Assembly: GCA_020434565.1 (NCBI GenBank)
Contig: JAGRAO010000008.1
Location: 1-33,886 of the forward strand
From: Bdellovibrionales bacterium
Lineage (GTDB): Bacteria > Bdellovibrionota_C > UBA2361 > RFPC01
Direction of reading: 5' to 3'
Length of the DNA stretch: 33,886 nucleotides
In this document: positions 6,921 through 33,092 of the stretch, one piece after another
How positions within the stretch are numbered: position 1 is the first letter of the stretch
Layout: each line of letters opens with the position of its first letter
Position numbers and translations under genes: made by a program
Notes under the pieces: model-generated
Told to the model about the DNA's origin: nothing
Database searches by the model: none
What the model saw: only the letters and a program-made list of their open reading frames with translations

Positions 6921-7092
6921 GGTATATTCTCCTAAAGCGATCCTCAAAAAGAGGGAAAACACATACTGGCCGCCGAAAATGGCAAAACTGATCAGGCTTT
7001 GGCCACCTTGAATCCGGGAATTCCATTGGCGGTCAGTATACAAGCGACCGACAGCTAAGAAAGTTGTTTACAAGCCAGATTCGGTTCAGCCC

Positions 7093-9006
7093 TCAATTGT
7101 CCTCGGGAAGGCCATTTCGGCACATCTCGAGATACTTGGTTACTCCGGGCTCTTTTAGTTTGTGTTCCAAAAGAAAGTCAATTGCCCGCTCGACTGAACC
7201 AATAAATTGTTCGTTTACAGGGAGAAAATCCCCAAAGAGATCTCTGCATCTCAACATCTCGTACGGATCCGACAACCTCTCCAGAGATGGAAAGTATGCT
7301 GCTTCACTATTTTCTACCGGGGTTGGAATTGGAGAGTGGTCCTCATCAAAATACTGCAACTGTGCGCCTTCGCCTGACTCTCTCTTCACCGGTATCCACT
7401 CACGAGAACAATGCGTTACTAGCCAAGAGGCAACCGCGAGCGACAACCCAGGGAAAGCCCTCCCCTGAGCAATACAATCGTTAATGGAAGGGATAACCCT
7501 CTCTCGAAACTTTCGAACTGCGTCGTTATTCAACCGGGTCACAGGATCGGGGAGTTCGGGGTTATTAAAACGATCGGTAAGGATACTTTCGATAGTGTTC
7601 CCAATCTCTCGGCTCGGGAAAGGATCAACGTGTGGAGCGATCTCTTCGTGGAGCATATCCCTCAAGAGGCTTGACATGCCGGGCAAGTGCAAAACTTCGT
7701 ACGAATAGTGGCACCCCGTTCGGGATCCCAACCACCCAAGCGCTACATGGAGACCATTTACAAGACGGATCTTTGTGTCAACGGCAGGACTCGTGTGTGG
7801 CGTGAGAATGACCCCATCAATACTCGCCCATCCTGGTGTTCCCCGTGGAAAGAACGCCCGCTCAAGATGGTCGCGATCTTGAATAAATTGAATACCGAAT
7901 TTCTCAGAAAAGATAGCGTGCTGATCTCTTGCTCCGAGACTCCTCCAGGCGCGCTCCATCTCAGCAGGTCCCATCCCTGGAACAATTCGATCAATCACCG
8001 TGTCCGGGAAGTAGTCGTTCTTATCCTTAATCCAATTGTAGAGACTGCCATCAACCATCTGAGCGAAACCGAGAACACTCCGCCTCACCATTCCTCCGTT
8101 ATGCCGAGCGTTCTCAAACGACAAAACGGTGAGCGGCTCTGTGTGTGTATCTCGTCGACGCCCGAGGCCTTCAACAATAAAGGCTGTCGGTGTCCTCAGC
8201 GGCCGTTCTGCGAGAGACCGGTTCGTGCACTTCGTCGGCGAAAAACCCAAAACACTAACCGAGAGATCCTCACTCTCTGGATGAAGTTCATTGGCTGCCT
8301 CGGGCCGATTCTCAATTAACCGTCGTGCACGAAGAGTGAGGATGTCGTTTTGGATCTCTGGGTTCTTAAGATCAAGCTCGCGACGTTCGTTCAAGTGGTA
8401 ACCAGGCAAACTCACAACGATCTTCAGAAATCGAGTACTCTCACGAGATAGAGCTTCAAGAACTTGGGACTCTTGTTCCGGGGCAAAGTACGCTTCCTTA
8501 ATAGCGCCAACGACCCGGGTTTTCATCCCACGCCCGTTAAGCGTGTGGTGAGAATACAAACAGTCCTGCGCAACGAGGTCTTCGCAGGGATGCATAAAAG
8601 TAACAACCGCCACCCCACTCGCTCGAGCCTGGTCAAAATTCTCTCTCATCGCAAGATCGTGTCCAGCGACAACAAGCCCCTTACTCAGCCGACCGAAACC
8701 AAACACGACGGTATCGACTTCTACGAGATCACGATCGTACGGAAATACCTCAACAGATGGATGAAGATCCGAAAGAGCAGACATTGAGAGAGGTTGAAAA
8801 TCAATTGAAGGGAGAGAGCCATTAAGGCCGTGCTCAGTAGGACGCTCGCGATAAGAGTGAGAGAGCGCGGCATTCCTACTCGCTTGATCCAAACCCGACT
8901 GATCCAAGAGAGATTGCCCCAAAAGCTCTGGGGGGATCACATCTCCCTCGGGTACCGGGACTGAATTTGGATCGTGTGGACCACTCACTGACACCACGTG
9001 CGACAT
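7093..9006 (-). CDS. Divergent mannitol-dehydrogenase family paralogue with N-terminal extension
   Basis: This is a 637-residue protein, well over the roughly 490 usual for the family. Residues 1-95 are a Pro/Ser/Gln-rich extension without a recognised domain. The Rossmann motif is altered to VFGFGRLSKGLVVAGHD (101-117). The catalytic core is kept: FENARHNG (Asn299), FPDTVIDRIVPGM (333-345) and KIRLVNGLH (Lys412, Asn417, His420) have the same spacing as the neighbouring enzyme. The kept residues argue for an active oxidoreductase with a different substrate or cofactor. An AAGGG sequence abuts the ATG at 9006 with no gap, so a GTG at residue 4 may be the true start. It sits between fructokinase and mannitol dehydrogenase. 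Confidence 0.85.
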   Translation of the reverse strand: MSHVVSVSGPHDPNSVPVPEGDVIPPELLGQSLLDQSGLDQASRNAALSHSYRERPTEHGLNGSLPSIDFQPLSMSALSDLHPSVEVFPYDRDLVEVDTVVFGFGRLSKGLVVAGHDLAMRENFDQARASGVAVVTFMHPCEDLVAQDCLYSHHTLNGRGMKTRVVGAIKEAYFAPEQESQVLEALSRESTRFLKIVVSLPGYHLNERRELDLKNPEIQNDILTLRARRLIENRPEAANELHPESEDLSVSVLGFSPTKCTNRSLAERPLRTPTAFIVEGLGRRRDTHTEPLTVLSFENARHNGGMVRRSVLGFAQMVDGSLYNWIKDKNDYFPDTVIDRIVPGMGPAEMERAWRSLGARDQHAIFSEKFGIQFIQDRDHLERAFFPRGTPGWASIDGVILTPHTSPAVDTKIRLVNGLHVALGWLGSRTGCHYSYEVLHLPGMSSLLRDMLHEEIAPHVDPFPSREIGNTIESILTDRFNNPELPDPVTRLNNDAVRKFRERVIPSINDCIAQGRAFPGLSLAVASWLVTHCSREWIPVKRESGEGAQLQYFDEDHSPIPTPVENSEAAYFPSLERLSDPYEMLRCRDLFGDFLPVNEQFIGSVERAIDFLLEHKLKEPGVTKYLEMCRNGLPEDN

Positions 9007-19384: not shown

Positions 19385-20599
19385 CTAAGGATACAGCGGA
19401 TTGCCGCCTAGTCCAGCATAGAGAATTGCGCCGATAAGCAGAGCGAGGATAAACGTCCGTAAGGGTATGGGATATATCAGCTTTTCGATAAAATAGAGCA
19501 CACTATCGACGAGCTGAACGATCGGCGAAAAAAGCCCTACGACCGGTTTGATAAGGGGGTGACGAGCTGTCCGTACCGAGGCCTCATACAGCCGATCCGA
19601 GAGATTGTGATCGGCGTGCTCCGTCTGATCCCTTCGGTTTCGCTCGTCCAGAATCGGAGAATCTTCCACAAGTGGCATCGAGAGCATCCCCCTGTGAAGC
19701 GCTTCAGCAAAGTTAAGAGCTGATTGCGGTCGCAAATTTGGATTGCGTGATAAGCTGTGAACACACAGATCTTCGAGCCAATCTGGGCAGTCCAGTCTTT
19801 TCTCTTTTGGAGACGGTGCATCTTCTTCAACTTTCTTCTTCGCCAAATCCCGAATATCTTCGTATTCAAACACGTAAGAGCTCGTGAGAAGTTCGTACAA
19901 CAATACGCCGAGAGCATAGATATCTGTTCGCGTGTCATAGCCCCCACCAACAAGATACTCAGGACCCATATAATGAACAGTCCCAACGACCAGCCCCTCG
20001 CCCGTCACCCGCTCACCCATGCGACTCTCCTGGCCGATCTCTTTTCGTCTCTGCCCAAGCCCCTGAACCGCGCCGCTTGTCTCAAGCGATGAAAGGCCGA
20101 AATCTGTGATCTTTACTTCTCCCGTCTCTGCCAGTAACACGTTTTCAAGTTTGATATCACGGTGAACGATTCCTTCTTGATGAATCGCATCGAGCCCGAG
20201 CGCGACTTGACGCAAAATATTGCAGATCAACCGAATTGAGAGAACTTTCTGCTGATCAAAGAGATTTTTGAGCGATTTTCCAGCGATATATTCGATGACT
20301 AACGCGACGTATCGATCGGTCGTTATACAATCGTAGCACGTTGTAACATACGGACTCCGCACCCGATTGATTGCGCGGATCTCCCGATGGAGGCGTTGCG
20401 ATCGGGTAGCATCGTGCTTTACATCAATCGCTATAATTTTTGCGGCAACTTCAAATTGCGCTCTCCGGTCGTAGCAAAGGTACACCGCTCCCGAGGCGCC
20501 TCTTCCGATATAGCGTCGAACTTCGTACCGGTTACCGATTACGTGCCCCCGACTTAACTCAATAATCGGAAGCCTCTTACTCTGTCTTCGTCTCGACAT
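19385..20599 (-). CDS. Membrane-anchored eukaryotic-type Ser/Thr protein kinase
   Basis: This is a 404-residue protein. The kinase domain shows GRGASGAVY (glycine loop), VAAKII (ATP Lys), HRDIKLEN (catalytic loop), DFG and DIYALGVLLYELL. The activation segment is long, with 43 residues between DFG and GPE, where GPE replaces APE. It contains a charged, Gly-rich insert. After the kinase, a linker of about 80 residues leads to a hydrophobic segment at the end (LRTFILALLIGAILYAGLG), so the kinase faces the cytoplasm as a tail-anchored protein. No extracytoplasmic sensor domain is present. The ATG at 20599 lacks a ribosome site; a TTG at 20653 has AAGGAG only 2 bases away and could be the real start. 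Confidence 0.9.
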   Translation of the reverse strand: MSRRRQSKRLPIIELSRGHVIGNRYEVRRYIGRGASGAVYLCYDRRAQFEVAAKIIAIDVKHDATRSQRLHREIRAINRVRSPYVTTCYDCITTDRYVALVIEYIAGKSLKNLFDQQKVLSIRLICNILRQVALGLDAIHQEGIVHRDIKLENVLLAETGEVKITDFGLSSLETSGAVQGLGQRRKEIGQESRMGERVTGEGLVVGTVHYMGPEYLVGGGYDTRTDIYALGVLLYELLTSSYVFEYEDIRDLAKKKVEEDAPSPKEKRLDCPDWLEDLCVHSLSRNPNLRPQSALNFAEALHRGMLSMPLVEDSPILDERNRRDQTEHADHNLSDRLYEASVRTARHPLIKPVVGLFSPIVQLVDSVLYFIEKLIYPIPLRTFILALLIGAILYAGLGGNPLYP

Positions 20600-20776
20600 A
20601 TTTGCGCGAAGGAAAGGCTCTCTTGGTTCTGGTATTCCCGCCTTGAGAGTCAATGCTCCTTAAATGGGAAGGAGAGCCACGTTGTTTCTATCGGCCATAT
20701 TCGGTTGAGCAGGAGATCGGAACAATACAGCGAGTCATATTTCGTAAAAGAAACAGGCCCTTACCTCATCTTTCGG

Positions 20777-22708
20777 CTATGAGAAAGATCTCTCACCAAC
20801 CCGGAGAGCCAGCTCTGTTCTGCGCTCCTCGCAGGCATCTGTGACCGGCACTGCTCTCAGGATCTCCGCCGCGAGTGCTTCAGGACTGACAGGTTTTGTG
20901 AGCACCACATCGGCGCCGAGAGAGAGAAAGGAAGCTCGAGCCGGCGCATCTGATGAACCCGTTACCACGATTACCGGAGGTTTCACATGAAAGGTCGAGA
21001 TTCCATCGAGCACCCGACGAGCACCGCCGCCAGGCATGGCTCCATCGGTAACTATTACATCCGGAGATTCAAAATTGCAGATTGCGAGCGCTTCTGATTC
21101 CTTTATGGCAGTGAGCACTTCAAAGCCATAAGCTCCAAGCGAACGCTTTGTCGTCTCGAGGACATCCGCAGAATCATCAACGAGGAGTACCTTCAGAGAT
21201 CTCGCAGAGACACGCTTCTCTCGCTCCTCTTCGAATGGTAAAGTTGAAACAGTTTCGTGCGAAAGAAATGTGCGCTTCTCTCGAGGGATACGGAGCGTAA
21301 AAGTCGAGCCAGTGCCGGGACTCGAGACCGCAGTCAATTCTGAGCCGTTGAGCTCCGCAAGAATTTTACTCAAAGCAAGTCCGAGCCCTACTCCTTCGCA
21401 AGGCGTCGTCCCAAATCGAGCGAACGGAACAAAGAGTTTCTGTACTTGCTCGGCACTCATCCCGATTCCTGTATCACGCACCGAAAAGAGCAATCTACCA
21501 CTTTCATCTTCTGTTAGCCGAACCCCTACCCGCCCCCTCTCGGTGTACTTGACTGCGTTGCTTAAGAGATTCGTGAGGATTCTTCTCAATTGACGCTTGT
21601 CTGCTTCAATATCTCCTGAGACATCACACTCACAATTGGATTCTATCCCTTTAAGACGCAATGTGATCCGAAACTCTTCCAGAACCGAGAGCACGAGCTC
21701 ACGAAGAGAAAATGCCTCTGGGCGAACAACGAGTTGACCCGCTCGATGTCTTGTATAGTCAAGGATACTCTCAACTATCTCTCCGAGGCTCTTACAGTTC
21801 GCGAGAGCCGTTTGAATGAGTTCAAGCTGCTCATCCGAGCCTTCATTTTCGAGCTCAAGGAGATGAAGAATAGATTGGACATTATTGAGCGGTGAACGAA
21901 TGTCGTGGGACACATGAGCAAGAAACTCCGAGCGCTGGTCAACTCGTGATTCGGCATCCTCTACTCGCTCAGCCAAAGTTCGAAGCTGTAAAAAAGACGG
22001 GAGCTTCTCACGAGCAATCCGTGCGACTTCCTTGAGCAGCGCACGATCAGCCGGACTCGGCTCAAAGCGCTGACTGTAACCAAGGAGAAACAAAACTGAT
22101 TTCGCTTCAACGCCGCTCCCGAACGTAAACGACTCTTTCAACACCTTCTTGATTCCAAACGGAGCAAAGCCGCAAACAACGCTGCGATCAATTTCAGGTT
22201 CGAGAAGGAGCGGAAAGAGTCGTCGGAGAATCTGCTCAAGGCGAACCCCTTTTGCTGGCTCCGATGCAACAGCGATATCTGCATCGTGGGGATTTCCAAG
22301 AGCAACGGCCACAAGCTTTCCCTGAAATTTCGACTGGAGAAAGCGAGCTATCCGGTGAGGGATTTCATTTTCATACACCGAGCCTAAGAGCACCCTCTCG
22401 TCAAACTCTTGCCGAAGGAGATCCTCGGGGAGTTCTCCTTGAGCGGCTTGAACGCAATCCAGCTGCCAGGCGAGCCTTTCTATGTGAGCATCAATCTCAT
22501 ACGCAGTCTCTCTCGGTGTTTTTCCACGAACGGCGCGCTTATTGGCGAGATATCTAAGTCCCTTTGCTTCGCGCTCATGCCGGAGACCAAGAAGAGCAAG
22601 CAGCACAAACGAGAGCCCGCACACTCGAACGAGTAGGTACGTGTCTCCCAGGGACCAAGCGAGAATTCCCCCGAGCGCTGTAAGAACAAGAACTCCGATC
22701 TGAATCAC
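20777..22708 (-). CDS. Hybrid sensor histidine kinase with C-terminal receiver domain
   Basis: This is a 643-residue protein. Two N-terminal membrane segments (residues 3-20 and 24-41) have almost no periplasmic loop. A GAF-like region (about 105-240) comes next. Then come the H-box HVSHDIRSPL (His268), N-box NLLSNAVKY, RDTGIGMS and GVGLGLALSK, and a receiver domain (506-625) with LLVDDS, phospho-acceptor Asp555 (VTDGAMP) and Lys605. The GTG start has GGAGG 5 bases upstream and overlaps the stop of the receiver-protein gene (GTGA), so the two are co-translated. It is the last gene of the Tad operon and would relay phosphate internally and perhaps to the preceding gene's receiver. Confidence 0.93.
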   Translation of the reverse strand: MIQIGVLVLTALGGILAWSLGDTYLLVRVCGLSFVLLALLGLRHEREAKGLRYLANKRAVRGKTPRETAYEIDAHIERLAWQLDCVQAAQGELPEDLLRQEFDERVLLGSVYENEIPHRIARFLQSKFQGKLVAVALGNPHDADIAVASEPAKGVRLEQILRRLFPLLLEPEIDRSVVCGFAPFGIKKVLKESFTFGSGVEAKSVLFLLGYSQRFEPSPADRALLKEVARIAREKLPSFLQLRTLAERVEDAESRVDQRSEFLAHVSHDIRSPLNNVQSILHLLELENEGSDEQLELIQTALANCKSLGEIVESILDYTRHRAGQLVVRPEAFSLRELVLSVLEEFRITLRLKGIESNCECDVSGDIEADKRQLRRILTNLLSNAVKYTERGRVGVRLTEDESGRLLFSVRDTGIGMSAEQVQKLFVPFARFGTTPCEGVGLGLALSKILAELNGSELTAVSSPGTGSTFTLRIPREKRTFLSHETVSTLPFEEEREKRVSARSLKVLLVDDSADVLETTKRSLGAYGFEVLTAIKESEALAICNFESPDVIVTDGAMPGGGARRVLDGISTFHVKPPVIVVTGSSDAPARASFLSLGADVVLTKPVSPEALAAEILRAVPVTDACEERRTELALRVGERSFS

Positions 22709-24015
22709 GCTGCCCTCCTCTTTTCGACGAGTCGGTGAACATACGCCGAAAGAAGCCTTGGATCCTGATTCTTTCGTAAATACGCATCTGCCCCAGCACC
22801 AATCACTTCTACTTCGGTCTCGATGTTGTCATCTGAGGTGAGCATAACTATCGGTACATCTCGCACGACATCAATCGCCCGCAGTCGCTTCACGAACTCA
22901 ATTCCGTTCATATGTGGCATATGAATGTCGCAGATAATCGCAGCTGGAGGTTCAGGGAGCTGCTGAATAAGCGCCATAGCTTCTTTTCCATGCGAAGCCA
23001 TGACAGAAACAAGTCCGAGCCTCTCGAGAAAGCGATGAAGAACGCAACGAAACACCTCATTATCATCAATTACCAATACCTTCGGACCGATCTCCGCCTT
23101 CGAAAAAACGACCTCCTCTTGGACCGAAAAATTGAGTGGCTCCTCGATTTCAGCTTCTTCAGCTTCTCCCTTGGAGACGATAGACAGATGGCCCACTTTC
23201 ATCGGCTGCGATTGCGTTGATTCTTGTTGAACTGCTTTTGGCCCTTCAAAGGTAAGCTCTACCTCTCTCTCTGACGGCCGGATCGTGAAACCACGAAAAC
23301 CGGGCAACGTTTTGAGAAACGTTTCACTTTCAATCTCTTCAAAAAGAAAATCTTCTACTGAATCTTGAACCTTTGGATGAACGGTCCCGAGTGCGCGTCG
23401 ACCATCTGCACTCTTAAAATGGTACTGAAGACGTTCTCCGACTCGGGAGATTCCTATGGCAGTGGCTCCGTGGCCTTTCGCTTCTTGAGCGATAAGTTGG
23501 AGCGTTCGAAGCACCATCCGACGAGACTCACGCCTTTCACTCAGCTCGCGTTCGAGCTCAAGTGTTTGGAGCCGTTGTTCCGAGATCTCAAGCGCTTCAC
23601 GAATGACACGCCACTCTGCGAGCCAATATCGCCCTCGAAATCCCTCTCTCGAAGATAAGAGCCCAGGATCAGCACAGGCATATCCAACACGAACTTTCTC
23701 AAGCACAATCGGAATAGCTCCTGCCTCTCGATAACTCTCCAAACTCGCCCGTGGACTCGATGAAAGCTCTTCTATCTCTATTGGCGCTATCCTATTGAGG
23801 TATGGAATTCCAAGCTGTTCGGCAACGATCTTTACGATCTCCCCGTTCGGCTCACCGGTGAGACTCGCTACTGTCGCTAACAACTCGCGAGGATCGGCAC
23901 ACTGTCCCAACACTACTTCGAGATCAGACTGAGAGAAGAGTCGGCCGAGCGCCTCTTGCACCGATGTAGGCTTCTTCGACAGAAGCAGCAATCGGGTCAG
24001 CAACTTACTCTTCAT
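22705..24015 (-). CDS. Response-regulator protein with PilB/MshE-like N-terminal region
   Basis: This is a 436-residue protein. Residues 20-120 resemble the N-terminal domain of type II secretion/pilus ATPases (MshEN type): IVKIVAEQLGIPYLN, then AGAIPIVLEKVRVGYACADP. A helical linker follows. Residues 168-215 recall the second PilB-like domain (LRTLQLIAQEAKGHGATAIGIS, then VGERLQYHF), but no Walker motifs follow. An acidic linker leads to a receiver domain (312-430) with VIDDNE, Asp363 (ICDIHMP) and Lys415. The ATG at 24015 has AGGAGAG 8 bases upstream and overlaps the TadE-like stop by 11 bases. A link between signalling and the pilus motor is inferred. The receiver is certain; the N-terminal match is tentative. 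Confidence 0.85.
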   Translation of the reverse strand: MKSKLLTRLLLLSKKPTSVQEALGRLFSQSDLEVVLGQCADPRELLATVASLTGEPNGEIVKIVAEQLGIPYLNRIAPIEIEELSSSPRASLESYREAGAIPIVLEKVRVGYACADPGLLSSREGFRGRYWLAEWRVIREALEISEQRLQTLELERELSERRESRRMVLRTLQLIAQEAKGHGATAIGISRVGERLQYHFKSADGRRALGTVHPKVQDSVEDFLFEEIESETFLKTLPGFRGFTIRPSEREVELTFEGPKAVQQESTQSQPMKVGHLSIVSKGEAEEAEIEEPLNFSVQEEVVFSKAEIGPKVLVIDDNEVFRCVLHRFLERLGLVSVMASHGKEAMALIQQLPEPPAAIICDIHMPHMNGIEFVKRLRAIDVVRDVPIVMLTSDDNIETEVEVIGAGADAYLRKNQDPRLLSAYVHRLVEKRRAA

Positions 24016-24730
24016 GGCCAAGCTCTCCTCTGAGGGCGACAACTCTTGCGTGATACACAAATGGATCACCGCCTACCTGTTCGTACGCCTCACCCGAAAA
24101 GGTTCCATCAAGCGACAAAATAATTCGTAGGCCAAACAGAATGACTGTCGGAAAGTATTGTTTCCTCTGAGTACCATCCCCAAAAAAGACAGAAGGAGTG
24201 GCATACACCGACCGGCTTCCCGGCTCATCTGAGATGGTTGTTCCAGCGAGACGGCTAAAGGCGTCACCGAGATCTGTTGCTGAATTCACCTCTGCTGGAA
24301 CAAAAAGTCCACCGGCGGAGCGAGAAAAGGTAGAGGGCTCTCTCACGAGACCGAGAGGCTCGCCAGTTTCCTGATCGATCCTGAGTTCGGCGTACGCGGC
24401 TTCAAGAAAATACTCGCCCGAAAGATTTGGATCTTCACCACGTGCTTCAATTTCACTCTCAGCAGCCTCTACTGTATTTCGAACTGCCTCTTCGATGCCG
24501 GAGTGGTTTGTCGAAAGAGTGAGCGGTCCATCCTGCGAAGAGAACGAATAGATACTTACCTGGGGTCGAGACACATAGCGCTCGACAATCTTTCGGACCT
24601 GACTTGCCTCACGCATATACGCGACAGTAGCGAACGCTCCGAGCAATGCAGGAATCAACACCACAAAAGAAAGCGCTGCTTCCAAAAAAGCAATGCCCCT
24701 TTCGCTCTCAAACCAAGACCTCTTCGCCAT
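24005..24730 (-). CDS. TadE-like pilus assembly protein
   Basis: This is a 241-residue protein. A short basic/acidic leader is followed by ERGIAFLEAALSFVVLIPALLG, the N-terminal pseudopilin-like helix of TadE/TadF proteins with Glu after the processing region. The long C-terminal part is periplasmic and shows no known domain. Known TadE proteins are minor pseudopilins needed for Flp pilus assembly. It lies 9 bases after the TadG-like gene and overlaps the receiver-protein gene, well inside the Tad operon. Sequence outside the first 35 residues is poorly conserved, so assignment rests on the helix and context. Confidence 0.75.
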   Translation of the reverse strand: MAKRSWFESERGIAFLEAALSFVVLIPALLGAFATVAYMREASQVRKIVERYVSRPQVSIYSFSSQDGPLTLSTNHSGIEEAVRNTVEAAESEIEARGEDPNLSGEYFLEAAYAELRIDQETGEPLGLVREPSTFSRSAGGLFVPAEVNSATDLGDAFSRLAGTTISDEPGSRSVYATPSVFFGDGTQRKQYFPTVILFGLRIILSLDGTFSGEAYEQVGGDPFVYHARVVALRGELGHEE

Positions 24731-24739
24731 ACCGTTTCC

Positions 24740-26221
24740 CTACCTCGAGACCATCGCGTTTCTTCGATCACGTGCTAAAACCGCTGTGACCGTTTCCAAA
24801 AAGGCTTCTGGAGTCGCCGTATCGAGCACTCGAAACGATACCCCGGTAGCCAAAGAATCACCTTGTGACTCGGCTTCGTGAAAAACTTGTTTCAGAAGCG
24901 CAACTCCCTCTGCATAAGAGTTGCTGTTTCCCTCATGAGGGAAGATTCCGTAGTACACCCGAAGAGGTATCTTATAGGTGTCAGCGTAGGTGCGGAGCTG
25001 AACCAGAGACTGGAGTACTGCACTCCGCACGGCGTCGTTTATTGCTCCATCGACGACCAGGCGCTGATTTCCCTCCCACGGAAGGTCCCCAGCGAGAATC
25101 ACAGCGATCTTGTTCGCCGTAGTCGCAAGATTTCCCCGCGATGCAACCGCTGGGGCAGCCACAAGTTTTGTTGCAACATGATCCAAGAGATAGCGAATGC
25201 TCGGCCTATTTCCACTATTCCCTTTGGCGACTTGCGACCAGAGAGACTCTCGCGTTGTGAGATAGCCATTCATCTCGGGCTCGTAGATGTAGTCGTTATT
25301 GCCATCTGGATGTGTAATAAAAGCTGGTCGATTATGATCCGGACGCCAAACGGAGAGTGAGTTTCTCAAAGATGGAAACTTGTACGCATCGTGCGAAATC
25401 TCACGCTCGGCAGCAGCCGCACACAGATCGTTGGAGACATACCCTCCTTCATAAACGATCCACTGCGCGTCGCTTTCATCTTCAAGGGCTGGCTCCGGGG
25501 TCAGCGGGGTCACTTCATTTGCAAACGTTCCTATCCCTGGATAAACCGCGACAGACACCGCATTCTCTCGAGAGGCGGCAAGAAACTCATATGTTCGAAT
25601 CGCAGACAATTTAAGCGCGGAAAATGCCCGGTTGAAACACTGCTGCGTTACAAGCTCTCTGTTAATCTGCTCGGGAATTCCATCGCCATCAGCGTCGTGA
25701 TACAGCGTCACATTTGAAGAGAAAAGATCGGCTACTCCATCGCTTCCGCTCCAGATACTCCCGAGCGGCATACTCGGAGAGAGGTAGCTGCTCGAATCAA
25801 GAAGTACGAGATAATCGTTCGGCGAACTCTGACTCTCTGCATACGCGAACACAGGAACCGCTGAGCCAATCCCAAAGTACTGAGCAAAAGGGAGAGAGAT
25901 CGTGCTCTCAAACCTGAGCGCTATCCGCTCAGGAGTAACCACTGTTGTTACACCGTCTCGCACTGCTCTATCGTGTTCTGAGAGAAACGCTCCTACAGCT
26001 GCTTCCGCAGCTTCAGTGTAGGGGAGATAGTGAGCCCCATACCCGACTGCCTTGTCGAGAACTCCCTGCACCCCGCGGCTAAACGCATAATAACGAGCAA
26101 TATCAAGAGAGAGGCTAAACAGGAAAAAGAGAACTGGCACGACAACTGCTGCCACAAAGATCATGGTAGAGCCACACTCTCGCTGTATTCTTCGCTCGAA
26201 TTTCAATTTCGACGCAATCAT
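24740..26221 (-). CDS. TadG-like pilus assembly protein with EF-hand-like loop
   Basis: This is a 493-residue protein. Residues 16-62 form the TadE/TadG N-terminal signature: CGSTMIFVAAVVVPVLFF, then LDIARYYAFSRGVQGVLDKAVGYGA. The large periplasmic part begins with a von Willebrand-like first strand, YLVLLDSSSY (Asp142), whose metal motif is imperfect. HDADGDGIPEQIN (residues 175-187) fits a calcium-binding EF-hand-like loop (DxDxDG). TadG proteins are thought to anchor or control Flp pili. The ATG overlaps the tadC stop by four bases. Length fits TadG. The calcium loop is a sequence-level inference. Confidence 0.82.
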   Translation of the reverse strand: MIASKLKFERRIQRECGSTMIFVAAVVVPVLFFLFSLSLDIARYYAFSRGVQGVLDKAVGYGAHYLPYTEAAEAAVGAFLSEHDRAVRDGVTTVVTPERIALRFESTISLPFAQYFGIGSAVPVFAYAESQSSPNDYLVLLDSSSYLSPSMPLGSIWSGSDGVADLFSSNVTLYHDADGDGIPEQINRELVTQQCFNRAFSALKLSAIRTYEFLAASRENAVSVAVYPGIGTFANEVTPLTPEPALEDESDAQWIVYEGGYVSNDLCAAAAEREISHDAYKFPSLRNSLSVWRPDHNRPAFITHPDGNNDYIYEPEMNGYLTTRESLWSQVAKGNSGNRPSIRYLLDHVATKLVAAPAVASRGNLATTANKIAVILAGDLPWEGNQRLVVDGAINDAVRSAVLQSLVQLRTYADTYKIPLRVYYGIFPHEGNSNSYAEGVALLKQVFHEAESQGDSLATGVSFRVLDTATPEAFLETVTAVLARDRRNAMVSR

Positions 26222-27117
26222 TTCGGCCCCGCCTGTGCAAGGAAATCGAGCACCTGAAGCATCGGCGCCGTAACAAACAGAATGAGCAGACCAACGAAAG
26301 TAACAAGGAGTGGAAGGGTTGCTTTGACCGGGAGCTTGGCGATCTCCTCTTCTACAGTCTCTTGAAAGTAGAGCTGAGTCGCGTCGCTTAGTTCACGAAG
26401 CGGATATATCAGCTCACCACCCTCGCGGTGCGCGACACCGAGGTGCAAAAACGCGTGTCTCAGTGCTGGCGACGGAATTCGAGAGGCGACTTCCTGAAGC
26501 GCGTCCTCAAAACCGAGTCCCTTCTCTGTGAGGTGCACCACATCTCGAAGTAACTCGGTTACTGGGTCAAGTTTCGTGGCTTCCTCTTGCTTCGGTTGAG
26601 CATGACTTTCAAGCTCGAGGAGAGCTTTAAGGGTTGCAAAGACATCGAGCCCTGCTTGAACACCCATGACAAGGCGCTCCATCACTATCGGGAGAAAAAA
26701 ATCGATCCTTCGGTGATACAAAAACTTTCTCTTTGCAAGTGAACGGCGAAAAAAGAGGTATCCAAGAGAAACGCCAAAAACCAAGGCTACGAAAAGGTTG
26801 AGGGGAGTTCCCTTTCCAATCGCGAGTACCCCGAAAAGAGCAAACGCTGCCCCAATTACGGGAAACAATTTTTCTCGTAACGAAACTCTCTTTCTCTCTT
26901 CAAGAGTAAAGATCCCGGCTTCTCGGAGTTCAAGCTCTCTCTTTCTCCGAGCAGCTACTTTCGAAGACCCTTCGAGACTATCTTGAGCTTCTTCTCTAAC
27001 TTCTTCCGGCTCAAGATCAACTAGAACATCAAGCGCGCTTCGACGAGATCGAAAGAAAAGCACCCCTACAAGCGAAGAGATAAAGGCAAGAAAAAGAACA
27101 GAAGAGACTGCGTTCAT
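26218..27117 (-). CDS. tadC: TadC-like inner-membrane platform protein (T2SSF domain)
   Basis: This is a 299-residue protein with an N-terminal membrane segment, two more at about residues 86-125, and one at the C-terminus (LPLLVTFVGLLILFVTAPML). Between them is a T2SSF domain: FFLPIVMERLVMGVQAGLDVF, GFEDALQEVASRI, LRHAFLHLG and EGGELIYPLREL. In Tad systems TadB and TadC form the platform that couples the ATPase to pilin extrusion. It begins 7 bases after the tadB stop and overlaps the TadG-like gene (ATGA). Confidence 0.9.
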   Translation of the reverse strand: MNAVSSVLFLAFISSLVGVLFFRSRRSALDVLVDLEPEEVREEAQDSLEGSSKVAARRKRELELREAGIFTLEERKRVSLREKLFPVIGAAFALFGVLAIGKGTPLNLFVALVFGVSLGYLFFRRSLAKRKFLYHRRIDFFLPIVMERLVMGVQAGLDVFATLKALLELESHAQPKQEEATKLDPVTELLRDVVHLTEKGLGFEDALQEVASRIPSPALRHAFLHLGVAHREGGELIYPLRELSDATQLYFQETVEEEIAKLPVKATLPLLVTFVGLLILFVTAPMLQVLDFLAQAGPK

Positions 27118-27123
27118 AGCTTC

Positions 27124-27996
27124 CTATCGCTCCTCAATTGAAGAGGATGACATCCTCATCATCCAAACAATTCCGCTTAGGATGAGAATCAACCCGAAAA
27201 TGAGGAGTTTGATGCCGAGCGGATGACCAACTGCAACTTTTATCGCTTGGGGGTTCCCGAGAAACTGGATACAGCCGATTACCCCGGCACATCCACCAAT
27301 TCCAAACGCCGACAGTTTTTGCATCGCTACCGCCGAACGGATCTTTCGTCTAAACGACTGCCTTTGGCGCGTAACACGTGCGAGCCTTCGGAGGCACTCA
27401 CTCAGAGAAGAGCCCTCGCGGCGAGCAAGGAGAAATGCCAGGTGAAAGAGTCTTAAGTCTGGATGGCGAACCGTTTTTCCAAAGCGGGTGATCGCCTCCT
27501 CTTCGCTCGCTCCTTCGTTGATGGCTTCTCCGAGCTGCTCAAGTTCCTTTCGCATGACCGAATCACTCTGAAAGAGCTCACTTGAGCGAACGAGAGCCAC
27601 CAGTGGATCAAGTCCTGTTTTCACCCCTGAAGAGAGTGAAAGAAGCAACGCGGCGTAATCTTTATCGAAAGCCTCTGTCCGCTTTCGAGCGCGAATCCCA
27701 AGCGCGGCAGACTTCCACAAGAGAAAAACAGGAAAGAGAAGGAGAAACACGACCTGTTGAGAAACGGCACTCAATCCAAACGTTATCAGCAGAGCCACGA
27801 GAACGTGTCGACCGAGACCATCTCCTTCTTCTTGGGAGAGCCCGGCAAAGTTGAGCTTCTCCTCTCCAAACAGCGAGGCCCAAGAGCGATTTCGGGCTGA
27901 AGCTCTTGTCCGAAGGGCTTTCGGAGTCTGCCGCTCTTCACTTTTTGCGAGAAGCACTCTCGTTCGCTTTAATTCAGATGAAGCATGGAGGAACAT
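27124..27996 (-). CDS. tadB: TadB-like inner-membrane platform protein (T2SSF domain)
   Basis: The product has 290 residues. A charged N-terminal region of about 60 residues is followed by two membrane segments (LVALLITFGLSAVSQQVVFL, then LLFPVFLLW). Then come a T2SSF cytoplasmic domain (ALLLSLSSGVKTGLDPL, EAINEGASEEEAITRFG, FHLAFLLARREGSSL) and two C-terminal membrane segments. It pairs with TadC as the pilus platform. A GTG immediately before the ATG is an alternative start; an AGGAG box lies 8 bases before the ATG. The gene begins about 11 bases after the cpaF stop. Confidence 0.9.
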   Translation of the reverse strand: MFLHASSELKRTRVLLAKSEERQTPKALRTRASARNRSWASLFGEEKLNFAGLSQEEGDGLGRHVLVALLITFGLSAVSQQVVFLLLFPVFLLWKSAALGIRARKRTEAFDKDYAALLLSLSSGVKTGLDPLVALVRSSELFQSDSVMRKELEQLGEAINEGASEEEAITRFGKTVRHPDLRLFHLAFLLARREGSSLSECLRRLARVTRQRQSFRRKIRSAVAMQKLSAFGIGGCAGVIGCIQFLGNPQAIKVAVGHPLGIKLLIFGLILILSGIVWMMRMSSSSIEER

Positions 27997-28007
27997 CACA
28001 CACGCTC

Positions 28008-29387
28008 CTAACGGCTCACAGACTCACGAAAGCTACTGTGCGAATCGAGCTCAAGCGAAGCCGGCATCTGGTGGAGATACACCGGATTCTCGAGCGCTTC
28101 GAGCGACTCACGATACAGACTCGCTTTGCTCTTTACCTGCCACACCGGCATTCGATTTCGACATTCGTAGCGAAAGATTTCGCGGTGGCGCACCGCTCCA
28201 TCAGCAACCGCTCCCAGTTCAACGACCTCTTGAATTCGCCGCTTTCCGGTCTGATTGCAGATGCCAATAAACACCAAGACCTGGACAGCGGTGCCGATCT
28301 GCTGGCTCAACACCTCTCGTCCAACTCCCCGTTGCGCCCTTCCAAGAAAAAGCTCTAAGCGAGTGATAGCATCGATCGCACTCTTTGCATGGATAGTTGA
28401 AAGCCCAGGGTGTCCCGAAGCACATACGTCGATAAAGGCTTCTGCCGCTTCAGCATCCCGAATCTCACCAAAGATGATTCGGTTCATCGCCATCCTCATT
28501 CCAGCTCGGATACATTCACTTGGAGCGATCCTTCCGGCTCCATCGGTGTTTGATTCACGGGTAGTGATGTATCGCGTCTGGGAATGCTCAAGGCGAATTT
28601 CGGGAGTATCTTCAATCACGAGAATCGAGTCTTCCTGTGGAATAGCACCAGCGATCGCTCGAGCGAGGGTCGTTTTTCCAGTTCCAACCTCACCCACAAT
28701 CATCAAAGTGTGCCCGGCCTGACAGATCCCACAGAGATATTCAAAGAGCGACATTGGCGCAGCGCCGTAGTGCACGAGGTCATCGATAGCGACCCGTCCG
28801 AACCGATTCAACCGAATAGTGAGATACGGTCCCGAATCACAAATTGATTTGTGTACGGCATGAACTCTGGCAAAGCCATCGATCATTCCATCTGCAACGG
28901 GTTTCTTCGTAGAATAGGTGCTCCCAGCTCGCTGCAAGAGCCGCTCAACAAACGCTTCATAACTCTCTTGGTTTGGAAACTGGACATCGGTTGTAAACGT
29001 TCGGCGACTTTTCTGTACCGAAACATGCGAATAGTCGTGCACGATTACATCAGATACTTCCGAGTCATCGACAAGTTCCTGCAGCACTGCAAAAGGACGC
29101 TGCTCACGCTCGACCTGCGACTGCACTTCATCGCGCTCAAAACTTGTAAGTTCAAGCCCCATCCGATCAGCGACTTCGTCGATAAGCTCTCGGAGAGCAC
29201 GCTCTCCTACCGGAGCTCCATCGTCACTCGAAATCGATGAGCCGAGTTCTCGCTGTACCTCACGGAGAATATTGGAAAGTGCAGGACTCAAAGAAGGACT
29301 TGAGCCGCGCCGATACGGCATCGTTGGAGCAGGAAGTGCTGGAACAACCTGCAAGCCGGTGATCTCTTCGAAGTTCACCCGCTTCAT
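28008..29387 (-). CDS. cpaF: Tad/Flp pilus ATPase CpaF (TadA)
   Basis: This is a 459-residue secretion ATPase. Walker A is GEVGTGKT (residues 232-239), the Asp box is LVIEDTPEIRL (Glu259), Walker B is RIIFGEIRD (303-311), and the His-box region is GLSTIHAKSAIDAITRLE (328-345). The N-terminal region (VSDVIVHDYSHV, with later RVHAVHKSI) matches the CpaF N2 domain. It powers Flp pilin assembly as a cytoplasmic hexamer. GGAG lies 7 bases before the ATG, which overlaps the cpaB stop by four bases. The C-terminal 50 residues after the motor domain are not recognised. Confidence 0.95.
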   Translation of the reverse strand: MKRVNFEEITGLQVVPALPAPTMPYRRGSSPSLSPALSNILREVQRELGSSISSDDGAPVGERALRELIDEVADRMGLELTSFERDEVQSQVEREQRPFAVLQELVDDSEVSDVIVHDYSHVSVQKSRRTFTTDVQFPNQESYEAFVERLLQRAGSTYSTKKPVADGMIDGFARVHAVHKSICDSGPYLTIRLNRFGRVAIDDLVHYGAAPMSLFEYLCGICQAGHTLMIVGEVGTGKTTLARAIAGAIPQEDSILVIEDTPEIRLEHSQTRYITTRESNTDGAGRIAPSECIRAGMRMAMNRIIFGEIRDAEAAEAFIDVCASGHPGLSTIHAKSAIDAITRLELFLGRAQRGVGREVLSQQIGTAVQVLVFIGICNQTGKRRIQEVVELGAVADGAVRHREIFRYECRNRMPVWQVKSKASLYRESLEALENPVYLHQMPASLELDSHSSFRESVSR

Positions 29388-30292
29388 TTTGCGGCTCCAG
29401 CTTCTGGTTGAACGAGACGATCAAACCCCTCAGGAACGACATTTGTTTTCGTCCACGTTCCATTTGAAAGAGCAAATCGCTGCCCCGGTTCGTCACTAAA
29501 TTCGACATAGCCGTCCACTCTTTCATAACGCAACGTGTCATCTCCTTCGCGGAGTGCTTCGGAGCTCAAGTGGCGACTTCCCCACTTCCCTTCATCTTTC
29601 ATACTCCGGAGAGCAAAAGCGATCTTTCCTTGGGGAATGGCGGTATTGATTGCGAGACACTGCTCTTGTGTGACAAGCAAGGTCACGGTTGAGGGGACAC
29701 TCGGACCTGAAATAGCTTGGACAGGATTAACCGAACGCTCAGCCGAGAGGATCTGAACTTTTTCAGCAATCACTCTCGTTTCATTTTTGTCGACGAGCAA
29801 AACATCAACAAGGGAACCCGTACCAGCCCACCCTTCTACCGAAGTCGTTGCATCAACCCGTACCGTCATAGCGCGCATACCTGGAGGGATACGTTCAATG
29901 ACAGGATTTGAGAGATCTGACGCAAGCGAGATATTTTCTGGAAAAAGAGGGAGATTCGCGGGAAGAGCCGCGATTGCTACCCCTTCAAGGTACGGAGTGA
30001 GATTCGTTATCGCTCCCTTTGGAACCTGGTGAGACGGAAAGCTCACCTGTCGAAACGAAATCTCTCTCATTTTGGTTCCGGCAGTGACCGGCTCCGATGG
30101 AACCGGTACTGACACGGTATCAAATTGCCCAACCACAGGAGCGACATTCACGACCGGAGCGGTTGCCTGAACTGGACGATTTGAGGAGATAAAATATGCG
30201 GCACAAACGATAGCGAACCCGAGAATGACAAACCCGAGAGTATTCTGCCTCCCGGCGCGTCTCTTTCGTGGTGATGTTTTTCGTTGAGCCAT
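29384..30292 (-). CDS. cpaB: Flp pilus assembly protein CpaB (RcpC)
   Basis: The product has 302 residues. A basic start (RKTSPRKRRAGRQ) precedes a membrane anchor at about residues 19-36. A periplasmic SAF-like region follows (SEPVTAGTKMREISFR, VPKGAITNL), then the RcpC/CpaB domain (RAMTVRVD, GTGSLVDVLLVD). CpaB proteins are thought to bind peptidoglycan and stabilise the secretin. A GAGGAGG box lies just before the ATG, and a stem-loop lies just upstream of that. The stop overlaps cpaF. The secretin gene that usually follows cpaB is missing. Confidence 0.9.
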   Translation of the reverse strand: MAQRKTSPRKRRAGRQNTLGFVILGFAIVCAAYFISSNRPVQATAPVVNVAPVVGQFDTVSVPVPSEPVTAGTKMREISFRQVSFPSHQVPKGAITNLTPYLEGVAIAALPANLPLFPENISLASDLSNPVIERIPPGMRAMTVRVDATTSVEGWAGTGSLVDVLLVDKNETRVIAEKVQILSAERSVNPVQAISGPSVPSTVTLLVTQEQCLAINTAIPQGKIAFALRSMKDEGKWGSRHLSSEALREGDDTLRYERVDGYVEFSDEPGQRFALSNGTWTKTNVVPEGFDRLVQPEAGAAK

Positions 30293-30345: not shown

Positions 30346-30558
30346 CTAAAGCCCGTCAATCTGAGTTGATTGCCGTCCAGCCCAGCCGCCCAAACTTTCA
30401 AAAACGCCACCGAGTCCGTTTCCAAATGCTTGAAGCCCAACCATAACCAACACCAACAACACGGCTGCCCCAGCGGTGTACTCGAGAAGGGTAAATCCCT
30501 CTTCACCACCTTTCTCACCGCGCTTTCGAAGTTGTACGAGTGCCTGCTTCTTTTTCAT
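30346..30558 (-). CDS. flp: Flp-type major prepilin
   Basis: This is a 70-residue prepilin. The 21-residue leader is rich in Lys, Arg and Glu and ends in Gly. The predicted cut is Gly21/Phe22, giving a 49-residue mature pilin beginning FTLLEYTAG, with Glu and Tyr at mature positions 5 and 6. Hydrophobic AAVLLVLVMVGLQAF follows, then a Gly-rich end. The Glu-Tyr pair and size are of Flp type, while GFTLLE matches classical type IVa pilins. The ATG at 30558 has AAGGAG 7 bases upstream; an upstream ATG at 30582 is less likely. It lies between tadZ and cpaB. Confidence 0.9.
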   Translation of the reverse strand: MKKKQALVQLRKRGEKGGEEGFTLLEYTAGAAVLLVLVMVGLQAFGNGLGGVFESLGGWAGRQSTQIDGL

Positions 30559-30584
30559 TTTCGATCTCCTTAACATGTTCACGA

Positions 30585-30739: not shown

Positions 30740-32203
30740 TCAGTGCAGTGAAGCCCCCGAGATGAGGTCATCAAAGTCGCGGTCTTTCTGCTTTTCAGCC
30801 GTTGGATCGGTTTCAGCGTTTACTACCTTTCCTTCTGGCTTTTCCTGAGACTGAGAGACATAGAGCGGTGCGGAATCCTCGCTTGTCTCTGTGGTTGGTG
30901 TCGGCAGCGTCAAGCGTGCCTTTCCGGTGAGCAGCTGCTCAGCTTTTTCAGATTTTTGAACTTGGAGTCGCGATGCTTTGAGCTTTGCGGCAAACTTTGT
31001 AACAACCCCGTACACATCAGGGAGCTTTCGCTCGCTTGGGGCAATCTCAGGAAAGAGCTTTACAGCGAGCGATTCGATACTCGAGGAGAAATCACTCTTT
31101 CCGAGAGTAAATGGCGAGGCTCCCGATCCGGGCCAACGACGAACATCTTTTGAATAGGGAATCGAATCACGAATAAACCGCTCAGGCTCAATTCGAGCGG
31201 CCCGACAAAATTCATCACGAAGAAGCGAACGCGAGAGCGCAAGTGGCGCTGTCACGTCAGCTACAATCAACTCACCACCGTGAGCGAGCGACTCTTGGAG
31301 ACTCTTCATCCGAGCAGCAGAGGCGTACAGTGCCGCTGGATCATTACTGAGCACAAAAAGGTGAGTATCAGCAAGGCGGTGGATCGCTTTCTCTAAAGGA
31401 CCACGAACCCCAGCGAGATCGATCAGTATGCAATCAAAGGCTTCATCGAGAAATTGAAAGACACTAATAAACGAACGAATCACCGAAGAGGCTGGGTTAT
31501 AAAACGCCTCGCGGTCAGGAATCGGTGAAAGACAAAAGAGATTCTCTTCATCTTCCCACACCTGAGTGACACACTGATCGACAAACTCAGCGGTGATGGG
31601 GCGACTTCCATCAAGGAGAAACTGTAGGTTTTCGTTCACAAAAGGTCGAACTTGCAGAAAGCGGGTGAGATCCTGGCTCTCACCATCAAAATCGACCAGA
31701 AGAGTTCGCTTTCCTTCTCGCGCGAGACACTCTCCAAGTGCCGCAACTGTCGAAGTAACTCCGACTCCTCCCTTGCCGCTATCAACCACGACAAGTGTTC
31801 CAGAGGCATGGCTTGAAACGCGTTTTGCGAGCAGCACTATCTTTTGCAGGAACTCAGCCGCGCTTGTTCGCTCAGACAACGTATCATCTGCTCCCTGCCG
31901 CGCTATCTGTTCAATCGAGGAAAGATTCTCAAGCCTCGACGTTGTGCACACGAGAAATGCTGAATTCGGATAGATCTTCTTGAGCTTTGCAATATCAGTG
32001 ATCTCTTGGTCGGCAACTCCCGGCCCAAGCACACAGATATCCGGTGCTCCGTGAAACCGTACCTCTTCCAGCGACAGCGGCTTCACCTGAACTCGTGGCA
32101 TCACTTCGATGTCTTTAATAGCCGACTCAAGATATGAGTGGATCCTATCGACAACTCGGTTTCTCGATTCAGCAGAGCGGTCAACGACGTAGAGGTGAAG
32201 CAT
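30740..32203 (-). CDS. tadZ: TadZ/CpaE-type MinD-like ATPase with pseudo-receiver domain
   Basis: This is a 487-residue protein. Residues 1-125 fold like a receiver, but the usual phospho-acceptor position is missing (DICVLGPG) and the acidic pocket is reduced (VVDRS). Residues 136-400 are a ParA/MinD ATPase with DSGKGGVGVTS (141-151): the signature Lys144 is present but the second P-loop Lys is Val. TLLVDFDGES and DCILIDLAG follow. A Pro/Thr/Glu-rich tail of about 70 residues ends the protein. TadZ/CpaE places the pilus machine at the cell pole. GAGGG lies 9 bases before the ATG. It is the first gene of the operon. Confidence 0.92.
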   Translation of the reverse strand: MLHLYVVDRSAESRNRVVDRIHSYLESAIKDIEVMPRVQVKPLSLEEVRFHGAPDICVLGPGVADQEITDIAKLKKIYPNSAFLVCTTSRLENLSSIEQIARQGADDTLSERTSAAEFLQKIVLLAKRVSSHASGTLVVVDSGKGGVGVTSTVAALGECLAREGKRTLLVDFDGESQDLTRFLQVRPFVNENLQFLLDGSRPITAEFVDQCVTQVWEDEENLFCLSPIPDREAFYNPASSVIRSFISVFQFLDEAFDCILIDLAGVRGPLEKAIHRLADTHLFVLSNDPAALYASAARMKSLQESLAHGGELIVADVTAPLALSRSLLRDEFCRAARIEPERFIRDSIPYSKDVRRWPGSGASPFTLGKSDFSSSIESLAVKLFPEIAPSERKLPDVYGVVTKFAAKLKASRLQVQKSEKAEQLLTGKARLTLPTPTTETSEDSAPLYVSQSQEKPEGKVVNAETDPTAEKQKDRDFDDLISGASLH

Positions 32204-32369
32204 TCGGAAAATCCCTCGAATGTGGGACCCGCGATGCGGTCACACCATTCCCTCCCTATCGTGCACCTGTGGAAAAAGTTTCCTGGAGATTTAACCGACG
32301 TAACTCACTGTTCTTGCATAATTTTTTTAGTTCTCCGATCGAACGATCTCTTTTTTGGGGGGCTCTCCG
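32204..32369. promoter_or_regulatory. Divergent promoter region of the Tad operon with 12-base palindrome
   Basis: This 166-base gap lies between divergent tadZ and the 239-residue gene, so it should hold both promoters. GATCGAACGATC at 32337-32348 is an inverted repeat of GATCG around AA, a plausible operator. For the plus strand, TTAACC near 32291 and GCATAAT near 32316 have roughly promoter-like spacing. Box assignment is weak. Confidence 0.4.
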
Positions 32370-33092
32370 ATGCTATACCGACCCCACATGAACGCAGATA
32401 AAAGAACGAACTCTCGAGCCTCGATCTCTCGAAATCTCCTCAACCGCTTCTACACCCTCACCTTCGAAGCTGAATTGCAACTCAGCGGCGTTCCCCTCTC
32501 GCCGCTTGCTGACCTGTGTGCGCGCTCACTCCTTCCGAAATCGTATTTTTCTGGCATCTCGATTGAAGACATAAAAGGTCGAGATCCAGTCGATCTCTCT
32601 CTTGAAACCACTGGAGCCGAAAAACCAAAAGCCCATGAACTTCTCTACATCGGAGCAACTACTTACGAGGACAAAGAAGCGTTCCAGGATGGCGAACCGA
32701 GCCCCTTCCATCTCCACCTCTACTCGGATTTTGAGAGTTATCCGAACGAGCTGCACATAGCGCACCGAACTCGACTCGAGTGCTCACGAGAACTCCCTTA
32801 CCCACCCTACCTTGCAGCCTTTGTTTGTCCCGGTTCACTCTTTGCCCTTCGATTTGGCTTTGAGCGGTATGAACCCGTTCGACCAATTGCGTTTTTCGGA
32901 CCAAGTCCTACCGTGGTTGAACAGATCTGTATCGATGGAGACACCGAATCAGTTCAGATTCGGATCACCTCAGAGCGTATTCCTCGCAAAGGAGAGCTCC
33001 CGTTTCAGGGGCTGGAACTCATTCAAAAGCTCCACGCACTCCTCTCCTCGAAGTATTCGTTCGACTTCATAAAATCTCTGACAACGTACTGA
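32370..33092 (+). CDS. Hypothetical protein divergent from the Tad operon
   Basis: I do not recognise this 240-residue protein. It looks soluble, with no signal peptide or membrane segment, and has mixed alpha/beta character with several aromatic and acidic clusters (HLHLYSDFESYPNE, FGFERYEPV). The C-terminus is an amphipathic helix (LELIQKLHALLSS). The start is uncertain: ATG codons at 32370 and 32388 are both possible, with only a G-rich stretch upstream of the first. It is transcribed away from tadZ across a shared promoter region. A chaperone- or effector-like partner for the pilus is only a guess from position. Confidence 0.65.
   Translation: MLYRPHMNADKRTNSRASISRNLLNRFYTLTFEAELQLSGVPLSPLADLCARSLLPKSYFSGISIEDIKGRDPVDLSLETTGAEKPKAHELLYIGATTYEDKEAFQDGEPSPFHLHLYSDFESYPNELHIAHRTRLECSRELPYPPYLAAFVCPGSLFALRFGFERYEPVRPIAFFGPSPTVVEQICIDGDTESVQIRITSERIPRKGELPFQGLELIQKLHALLSSKYSFDFIKSLTTY

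Follow-up and report, generated by a model that had tools for sequence, protein, structure and literature searches.

A response regulator with the N1-N2 front of PilB/GspE-type ATPases lies with its partner kinase at the end of a Tad pilus operon

Introduction

Surface sensing is among the roles of Tad pili (PMC13170226), and a single motor, CpaF/TadA, both extends and retracts them; the switch between both activities is not known, phosphorylation having been named as one possibility (PMC11300603). The motor is ringed by CpaE, a protein with an atypical receiver domain (PMC13170226). The N1 domain of PilB/GspE motors is believed to touch the stator, and N2 lies against the motor core of the neighboring subunit (PMC11656802). 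For MshEN domains, a 24-residue c-di-GMP motif and a relaxed form of it have been published, with indications that imperfect motifs may still bind the second messenger and that the MshEN-type domain of XpsE loses binding once the motif decays; MshEN-REC proteins that bind c-di-GMP were reported in the same work (PMC5013675). A receiver protein of another kind, the PATAN-REC regulator PixE, has been proposed to bind the PilB1 motor in cyanobacteria (PMC7690835), and two-component systems encoded next to tad genes have been found elsewhere to activate tad transcription (PMC3767616). Here we analyze a hybrid histidine kinase (HK) and a response regulator (RR) encoded by the last genes of a Tad operon in a Bdellovibrionales bacterium, and their relatives across this poorly studied phylum.

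Results

Gene layout of the Tad operon

The window under study is a stretch of 33,886 nucleotides (contig JAGRAO010000008.1 of assembly GCA_020434565.1). On its minus strand, genes follow the order CpaE-flp-CpaB-TadA-TadB-TadC-TadG-like-TadE-like, then the RR and then the HK, so that the Tad/Flp operon set of TadA, TadB, TadC, CpaB, CpaE and Flp prepilin is present, the prepilin by motif. The CpaE/TadZ-like ATPase (30740..32203) has an N-terminal receiver-like region without the acceptor Asp ('CVLGP'), a trait conserved in relatives; the operon has its canonical receiver in the RR. Between CpaE and CpaB, a candidate Flp-type prepilin (30346..30582, start codon uncertain) was recognized by inspection from its G|FTLLEY processing motif. 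CpaB/RcpC (29384..30292; NCBIfam pilus_cpaB, 1.6e-32, above cut-off) is followed by the TadA/CpaF motor ATPase (28008..29387; Pfam T2SSE, 3.9e-29; NCBIfam TadA family, 7e-53), the TadB-type and TadC-type platform proteins (27124..27999 and 26218..27117; T2SSF, E 1.6e-11 and 1.9e-6, respectively), a TadG-like protein with a weak Pfam Tad match (24740..26221; E 0.044) and a TadE-like pseudopilin gene, assigned by position and sequence and without Pfam match (24005..24730).

The first-pass annotation had placed a two-component pair at the end of this operon, joined to it by overlaps, and its coordinates proved right. The RR gene (22705..24015, encoding 436 aa) starts with an ATG at 24015 and so overlaps by 11 bases with the TadE-like gene, the end of which is at 24005; its stop at 22705 leads into the HK gene (20777..22708, encoding 643 aa), whose GTG start at 22708 lies in a 4-bp GTGA overlap with the RR gene and which ends at 20777. 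Promoter and terminator scans were uninformative (three promoter-like sites against 7.4 expected). No gene for the secretin (CpaC/RcpA) was recognized within the window, and two secretins are encoded elsewhere in the draft genome, on different contigs.

Some neighboring genes may be recorded. A protein without Pfam match is encoded divergently upstream of CpaE (32355-33092, plus strand), in the same place in most relatives, and the gene next after that of the hybrid kinase encodes a Ser/Thr protein kinase (19385-20653, minus strand). Farther away, two adjacent genes of the mannitol dehydrogenase family, of unequal length, occupy 5409-9006 (minus strand), the longer one (637 aa) having the weaker score.

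The N-terminus of the RR is homologous to N1-N2 of PilB/GspE

The RR was found to consist of an MshEN/GSPII (N1)-like domain (residues 14-150, 23566..23976), an N2-like domain (residues 160-262, 23230..23538), a linker and a C-terminal REC, all encoded on the minus strand. The N1-like domain combines a four-helix subdomain with an alpha/beta MshEN_C subdomain and has the conserved 'DP' (D116-P117), and the N2-like domain has 'GATAIGISRVGERLQYHFKSADG' in the region of the GspE/PilB 'ASDIHIEP..VRFRIDG'. The first 215 residues had previously been read as MshEN/T2SSE_N-like domains without the motor; the type of module held in profile and fold comparisons, and its length had to be revised, since the ATPase-like part extends to about residue 257 and includes the N2-type domain. 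The C-terminal ATPase core with its Walker A motif is absent, with REC in its place and no T2SSE match in Pfam.

Searches with single sequences were insufficient to reveal this homology. Pfam MshEN (PF05157) matched the window RR with E 0.12-0.13 and 12.5-12.8 bits, below the curated cut-off of 23.1 bits, and missed it in the search of the genome; the member from G012 reached 21.7 bits, also below that cut-off. A phmmer search of the window RR against PDB returned REC only, and a contig scan with it as single query detected no relative. The family was matched at E<1 in 6 of 34 relatives, with best E values of 1.5e-4 to 6e-4, and MshEN was the most recurrent family besides REC, both in 3 of 23 members and in those 6 of 34, where it was the sole recurrent one among the matches listed. 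The MshEN match of the window RR was established by family profile and fold searches.

When the profile of 38 RR N-termini was compared with that of 34 PilB/GspE-type proteins by hhalign, 200 columns aligned collinearly (Prob 96.9, E 1.3e-10) with a score of 82.8, against a maximum of 24.1 in 60 column shuffles, none of which was as good. Compared separately, the MshEN part gave E 6e-9, while for the N2 part the score was 29.8 and the highest shuffle reached 17.6; 0/200 shuffles were as good in either case. Profiles of TadA, TadB, TadC, TadG, CpaB, CpaE and HK scored 22.3 at most. Against PDB sequences, a profile of 34 RR N-termini retrieved the GSPII/MshEN domain of PilF first (E 8.6e-5) and PilB next, and in unrelated genomes its matches were mostly ORFs of PilB/GspE size (~530-660 aa).

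Structure prediction gave a consistent result. The AlphaFold model of residues 1-262 (pLDDT 88.4) matched the PilB/EpsE core and XpsE-N in Foldseek with probabilities of 0.97-1.00 for most top matches, none of them with E <0.001, for which reason the MshEN part was folded by itself. The resulting model of residues 14-150 (pLDDT 93.6) had MshEN-type structures as all of its top 16 PDB matches (TM 0.41-0.55, probability 0.75-1.00), after which E leapt from 0.17 to 1.5. MshEN, PilF-GSPIIB and XpsE-N structures and the PilB core headed the Foldseek results of these two models. A viral fold library used as control gave scattered matches. The profile search and structure prediction against MshEN/T2SSE_N proposed in the first-pass annotation thus both yielded a match, by hhalign and Foldseek. 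From the family profiles, hhalign comparisons and AlphaFold and Foldseek matches taken together, the RR is the N1-N2 portion of a PilB/GspE-type ATPase without its motor, fused to REC. The N-terminus of TadA itself is FlaI-like and without MshEN; a likeness of N2 to it was tested by profile comparison and was not found.

The receiver domain and the partner kinase

The REC of the RR (residues 313-427, 22735..23079) was matched by Pfam Response_reg over residues 313-426 with E 6.4e-24, and it has an intact acid pair (D317/D318), the phosphoacceptor D363, T393 and K415, the motifs that had been noticed from the sequence. Acceptor and switch residues are retained in 35 of the 38 relatives compared, the exceptions being L119 (truncated contig), L120 (degenerate REC) and L121 (no REC). 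Pfam detected no DNA-binding domain in the window RR, the 23 order-level RRs or the 34 relatives. In the order-level set, only Response_reg and MshEN were matched, apart from TetR_C_46 (E 0.038) in two members, a weak stray match to a C-terminal domain that does not bind DNA. An output of the RR as transcription factor was hence rejected.

The HK of the window has HisKA (2e-14), HATPase_c (3e-25) and a C-terminal REC (2e-18) according to Pfam, preceded by a hydrophobic N-terminus with two transmembrane segments predicted by eye and by a cytoplasmic input region of ~200 aa in which Pfam matched nothing. The H, N and G boxes and the C-terminal REC are retained in the HK family, that REC being absent from three members (L052, L116, L117). 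The existence of three partner kinases without a REC of their own makes direct transfer from HK to RR plausible and indicates that a phosphorelay through the kinase REC is not obligatory. Judging from these sequences, the RR is probably phosphorylated by the adjacent kinase, and probably directly.

The pair is linked to Tad operons across the phylum

A protein query detected RR relatives in 24 genomes, counting that of the window, and profiles combined with inspection of Tad loci brought the total to 41 loci, distributed over 39 of the phylum's 46 genomes (26/29 in the order and 13/17 in the rest of the class). In all 38 loci with visible flanks, tad genes adjoin the RR; the other three (L047, L169, L170) are cut by contig ends. 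The kinase is directly downstream of the RR wherever the contig reaches, and measurement of 22 loci gave gaps between both genes of -19 to +9 bp. That the pair recurs throughout the phylum in the same position, as the last genes of Tad operons, excludes chance. Neither of the outcomes that would have spoken against the first-pass annotation, namely an N-terminus without T2SSE_N/MshEN profile or fold match and homologues located mostly away from tad genes, was found, given the profile and fold match and the linkage in 38/38 loci.

Seven genomes were counted as lacking the RR. The Tad locus is cut by a contig end in G006, G026 and G044, no TadA match was obtained in G021 at the threshold used, the Tad operon is followed by another kinase in G029 and G031, and G045 is the seventh. 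Outside the phylum, no full-length RR relative was seen in ~337 genomes. TadA is present in every genus of the phylum, usually in two versions. The genome of the window has a second, divergent Tad locus (L132, G000:C99) with a TadA ~37% identical and without the RR/HK pair, in which the gene upstream of CpaE has a Ser/Thr-kinase-like start; a second TadA of this sort is found in nearly every genome of the phylum.

The composition of the RR varies among loci. MshEN has been lost and N2-REC kept in L056, L169 and L171, the acceptor of the REC being gone in the latter by inspection, while L170 has MshEN-N2 without REC. The part of the protein that varies least is thus N2, as deduced from the three loci with N2-REC only and from L170 with MshEN-N2 only. 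With MshEN missing from L056, L169 and L171, REC missing from L121 and L170, and REC degenerate in L120 and L171, not all parts are needed everywhere. L056 is in G011 (G011:C390), which harbors two Tad operons of the window type, each with its own RR-HK, and corresponds to the second of them. In G038, the operon is split, with CpaE-CpaB-TadA-TadB-TadC on one contig, and the RR and HK genes elsewhere together with the TadG-like gene and a short TadE-like one (L143, L171), which shows that RR-HK stays with TadG/TadE.

The c-di-GMP motif is missing from the family

The earlier suggestion of a c-di-GMP-type domain fared worse. The tandem 24-residue MshEN motif, including its relaxed form (PMC5013675), was found in no member of the RR family. 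Since most PilBs of the order likewise escape both the strict and the relaxed pattern, a count of key positions is the fairer comparison: the best RR 24-mers have 4-7 of 11 (5 in the window RR), and same-order PilBs mostly 8-11. With these motifs missing family-wide, the c-di-GMP reading is not supported, and control of the RR by c-di-GMP appears unlikely from its sequence.

Discussion

The output of the RR is most likely protein binding, through which, once phosphorylated by its partner kinase, it would act on the Tad inner-membrane machine. We propose a dedicated two-component system in which the hybrid kinase would sense a cue via its cytoplasmic input region near the membrane and phosphorylate the REC of the RR, probably directly, and in which phosphorylation would change the docking of the N1-N2 module on the Tad inner-membrane complex, an account that we hold to be evenly balanced between right and wrong. 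Likely contacts of the module would be the TadA hexamer, the TadB/TadC platform or the CpaE ring, and pilus extension or retraction might consequently be engaged, braked or reversed. We infer a changed contact with one of these components from the contacts of N1 and N2 in PilB, the two-way activity of CpaF, the ring of CpaE around it and the PATAN-REC precedent, and the earlier proposal that phosphorylation controls how the RR interacts with the pilus motor or platform fits the anatomy of the protein as well as those precedents. The lack of MshEN in TadA, with its FlaI-like N-terminus, means that docking of the PilB type is not directly transferable. A more specific version, in which the RR would be a phosphorylation-controlled Tad subunit that supplies in trans the N1-N2 absent from TadA and sets extension versus retraction by this motor, is in our opinion unlikely.

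The RR could instead only tether the kinase, or its target could be a type IVa pilus or type II system whose genes lie elsewhere in the genome. In the former case, N1-N2 would serve for localization, anchoring RR and kinase at the base of the Tad apparatus, where the state of the machine (load, assembly) would be sensed and the signal passed on elsewhere, the motor itself not being directly controlled. Anatomy and tad linkage are equally compatible with such a scaffold, L121 and L170 keep N1-N2 without REC as would be expected of a tether, and Tad pili have a role in surface sensing (PMC13170226); however, the operon has no conserved gene for an onward output, and conservation of the REC acceptor residues in 35/38 points to the RR itself as the effector that is phosphorylated, so that we see the scaffold as a possible, rather doubtful alternative. 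Action on another machine, with N1-N2 as a decoy through which a type IVa PilB or a type II secretion ATPase would be coordinated with the Tad pilus, draws on the fact that the module is closest to PilB/GspE, which are also encoded in these genomes, and not to TadA, but the strict linkage is to tad genes rather than to pil or gsp genes, and this makes it quite improbable.

Two further explanations deserve still less credit. That the RR integrates c-di-GMP and phosphorylation, its MshEN binding the nucleotide as in MshE or Bdellovibrio Bd2402, would be in keeping with the presence of the fold, with the c-di-GMP-binding MshEN-REC proteins on record and with the possible activity of imperfect motifs (PMC5013675), yet no RR has even a relaxed motif, the 4-7 of 11 key positions fall short of the 8-11 in most PilBs of the order, and XpsE provides a precedent of binding lost on motif decay (PMC5013675); we regard it as very improbable. 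A transcriptional system for tad genes, like PprAB or ECA0785/ECA0786 of Pectobacterium, could be supposed from the linked position and from the activation of tad transcription by adjacent systems elsewhere (PMC3767616), but it is hardly credible for an RR family without DNA-binding domain whose N-terminus is a PilB/GspE N1-N2 module.

To return to control of the Tad machine by docking, the RR/HK pair constitutes a concrete candidate for the switch between extension and retraction (PMC11300603), with specific residues and surfaces to test, D363 and those of N1-N2. In nearly all of the phylum, the Tad operon includes genes for a kinase and for a receiver with a pilus-motor-like front, a placement that suggests a phosphorylation switch acting directly on the pilus machine.

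Comparison with known systems

In the literature searched, we found no description of the N1-N2-REC build, of the missing c-di-GMP motif or of a location behind the other Tad genes throughout a phylum. Pilus-linked two-component genes beside tad clusters are represented by PprAB in P. aeruginosa and ECA0785/ECA0786 in Pectobacterium (PMC3767616), whose regulators act on transcription, ECA0785 being of the OmpR type, whereas the RR has no DNA-binding domain. A receiver-like fold already exists in the Tad cytoplasmic ring, in CpaE/TadZ (PMC13170226), but in the operon studied here that region lacks the acceptor Asp, and the canonical REC belongs to a distinct protein, the RR. PixE, PixG and LsiR, the PATAN-REC proteins of cyanobacterial phototaxis (PMC7690835), resemble the RR in having an N-terminal protein-binding domain and a C-terminal REC and in being linked to pili; PATAN is nevertheless another domain family, and these proteins act on type IVa pili and are encoded outside the pilus operon. 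With PilB/GspE-type ATPases (PilF-GSPIIB 8pdk, MshE 5htl, XpsE-N 2d27/2d28, PilB 5tsh) the RR shares the order, folds and sequence homology of N1-N2, and differs by the REC that takes the place of the C-terminal ATPase core. The MshEN-REC regulators, such as Bd2402 of Bdellovibrio (Wang et al., 2016; PMC5013675), likewise combine an MshEN-type domain and a receiver in one protein, and the fusion itself is therefore not new; in contrast to them, the RR lacks the c-di-GMP motif, has an additional N2-like domain and is encoded at a fixed position, at the end of the Tad operon and beside its kinase. The new elements are the N1-N2-REC architecture and its constant position within the Tad operon.
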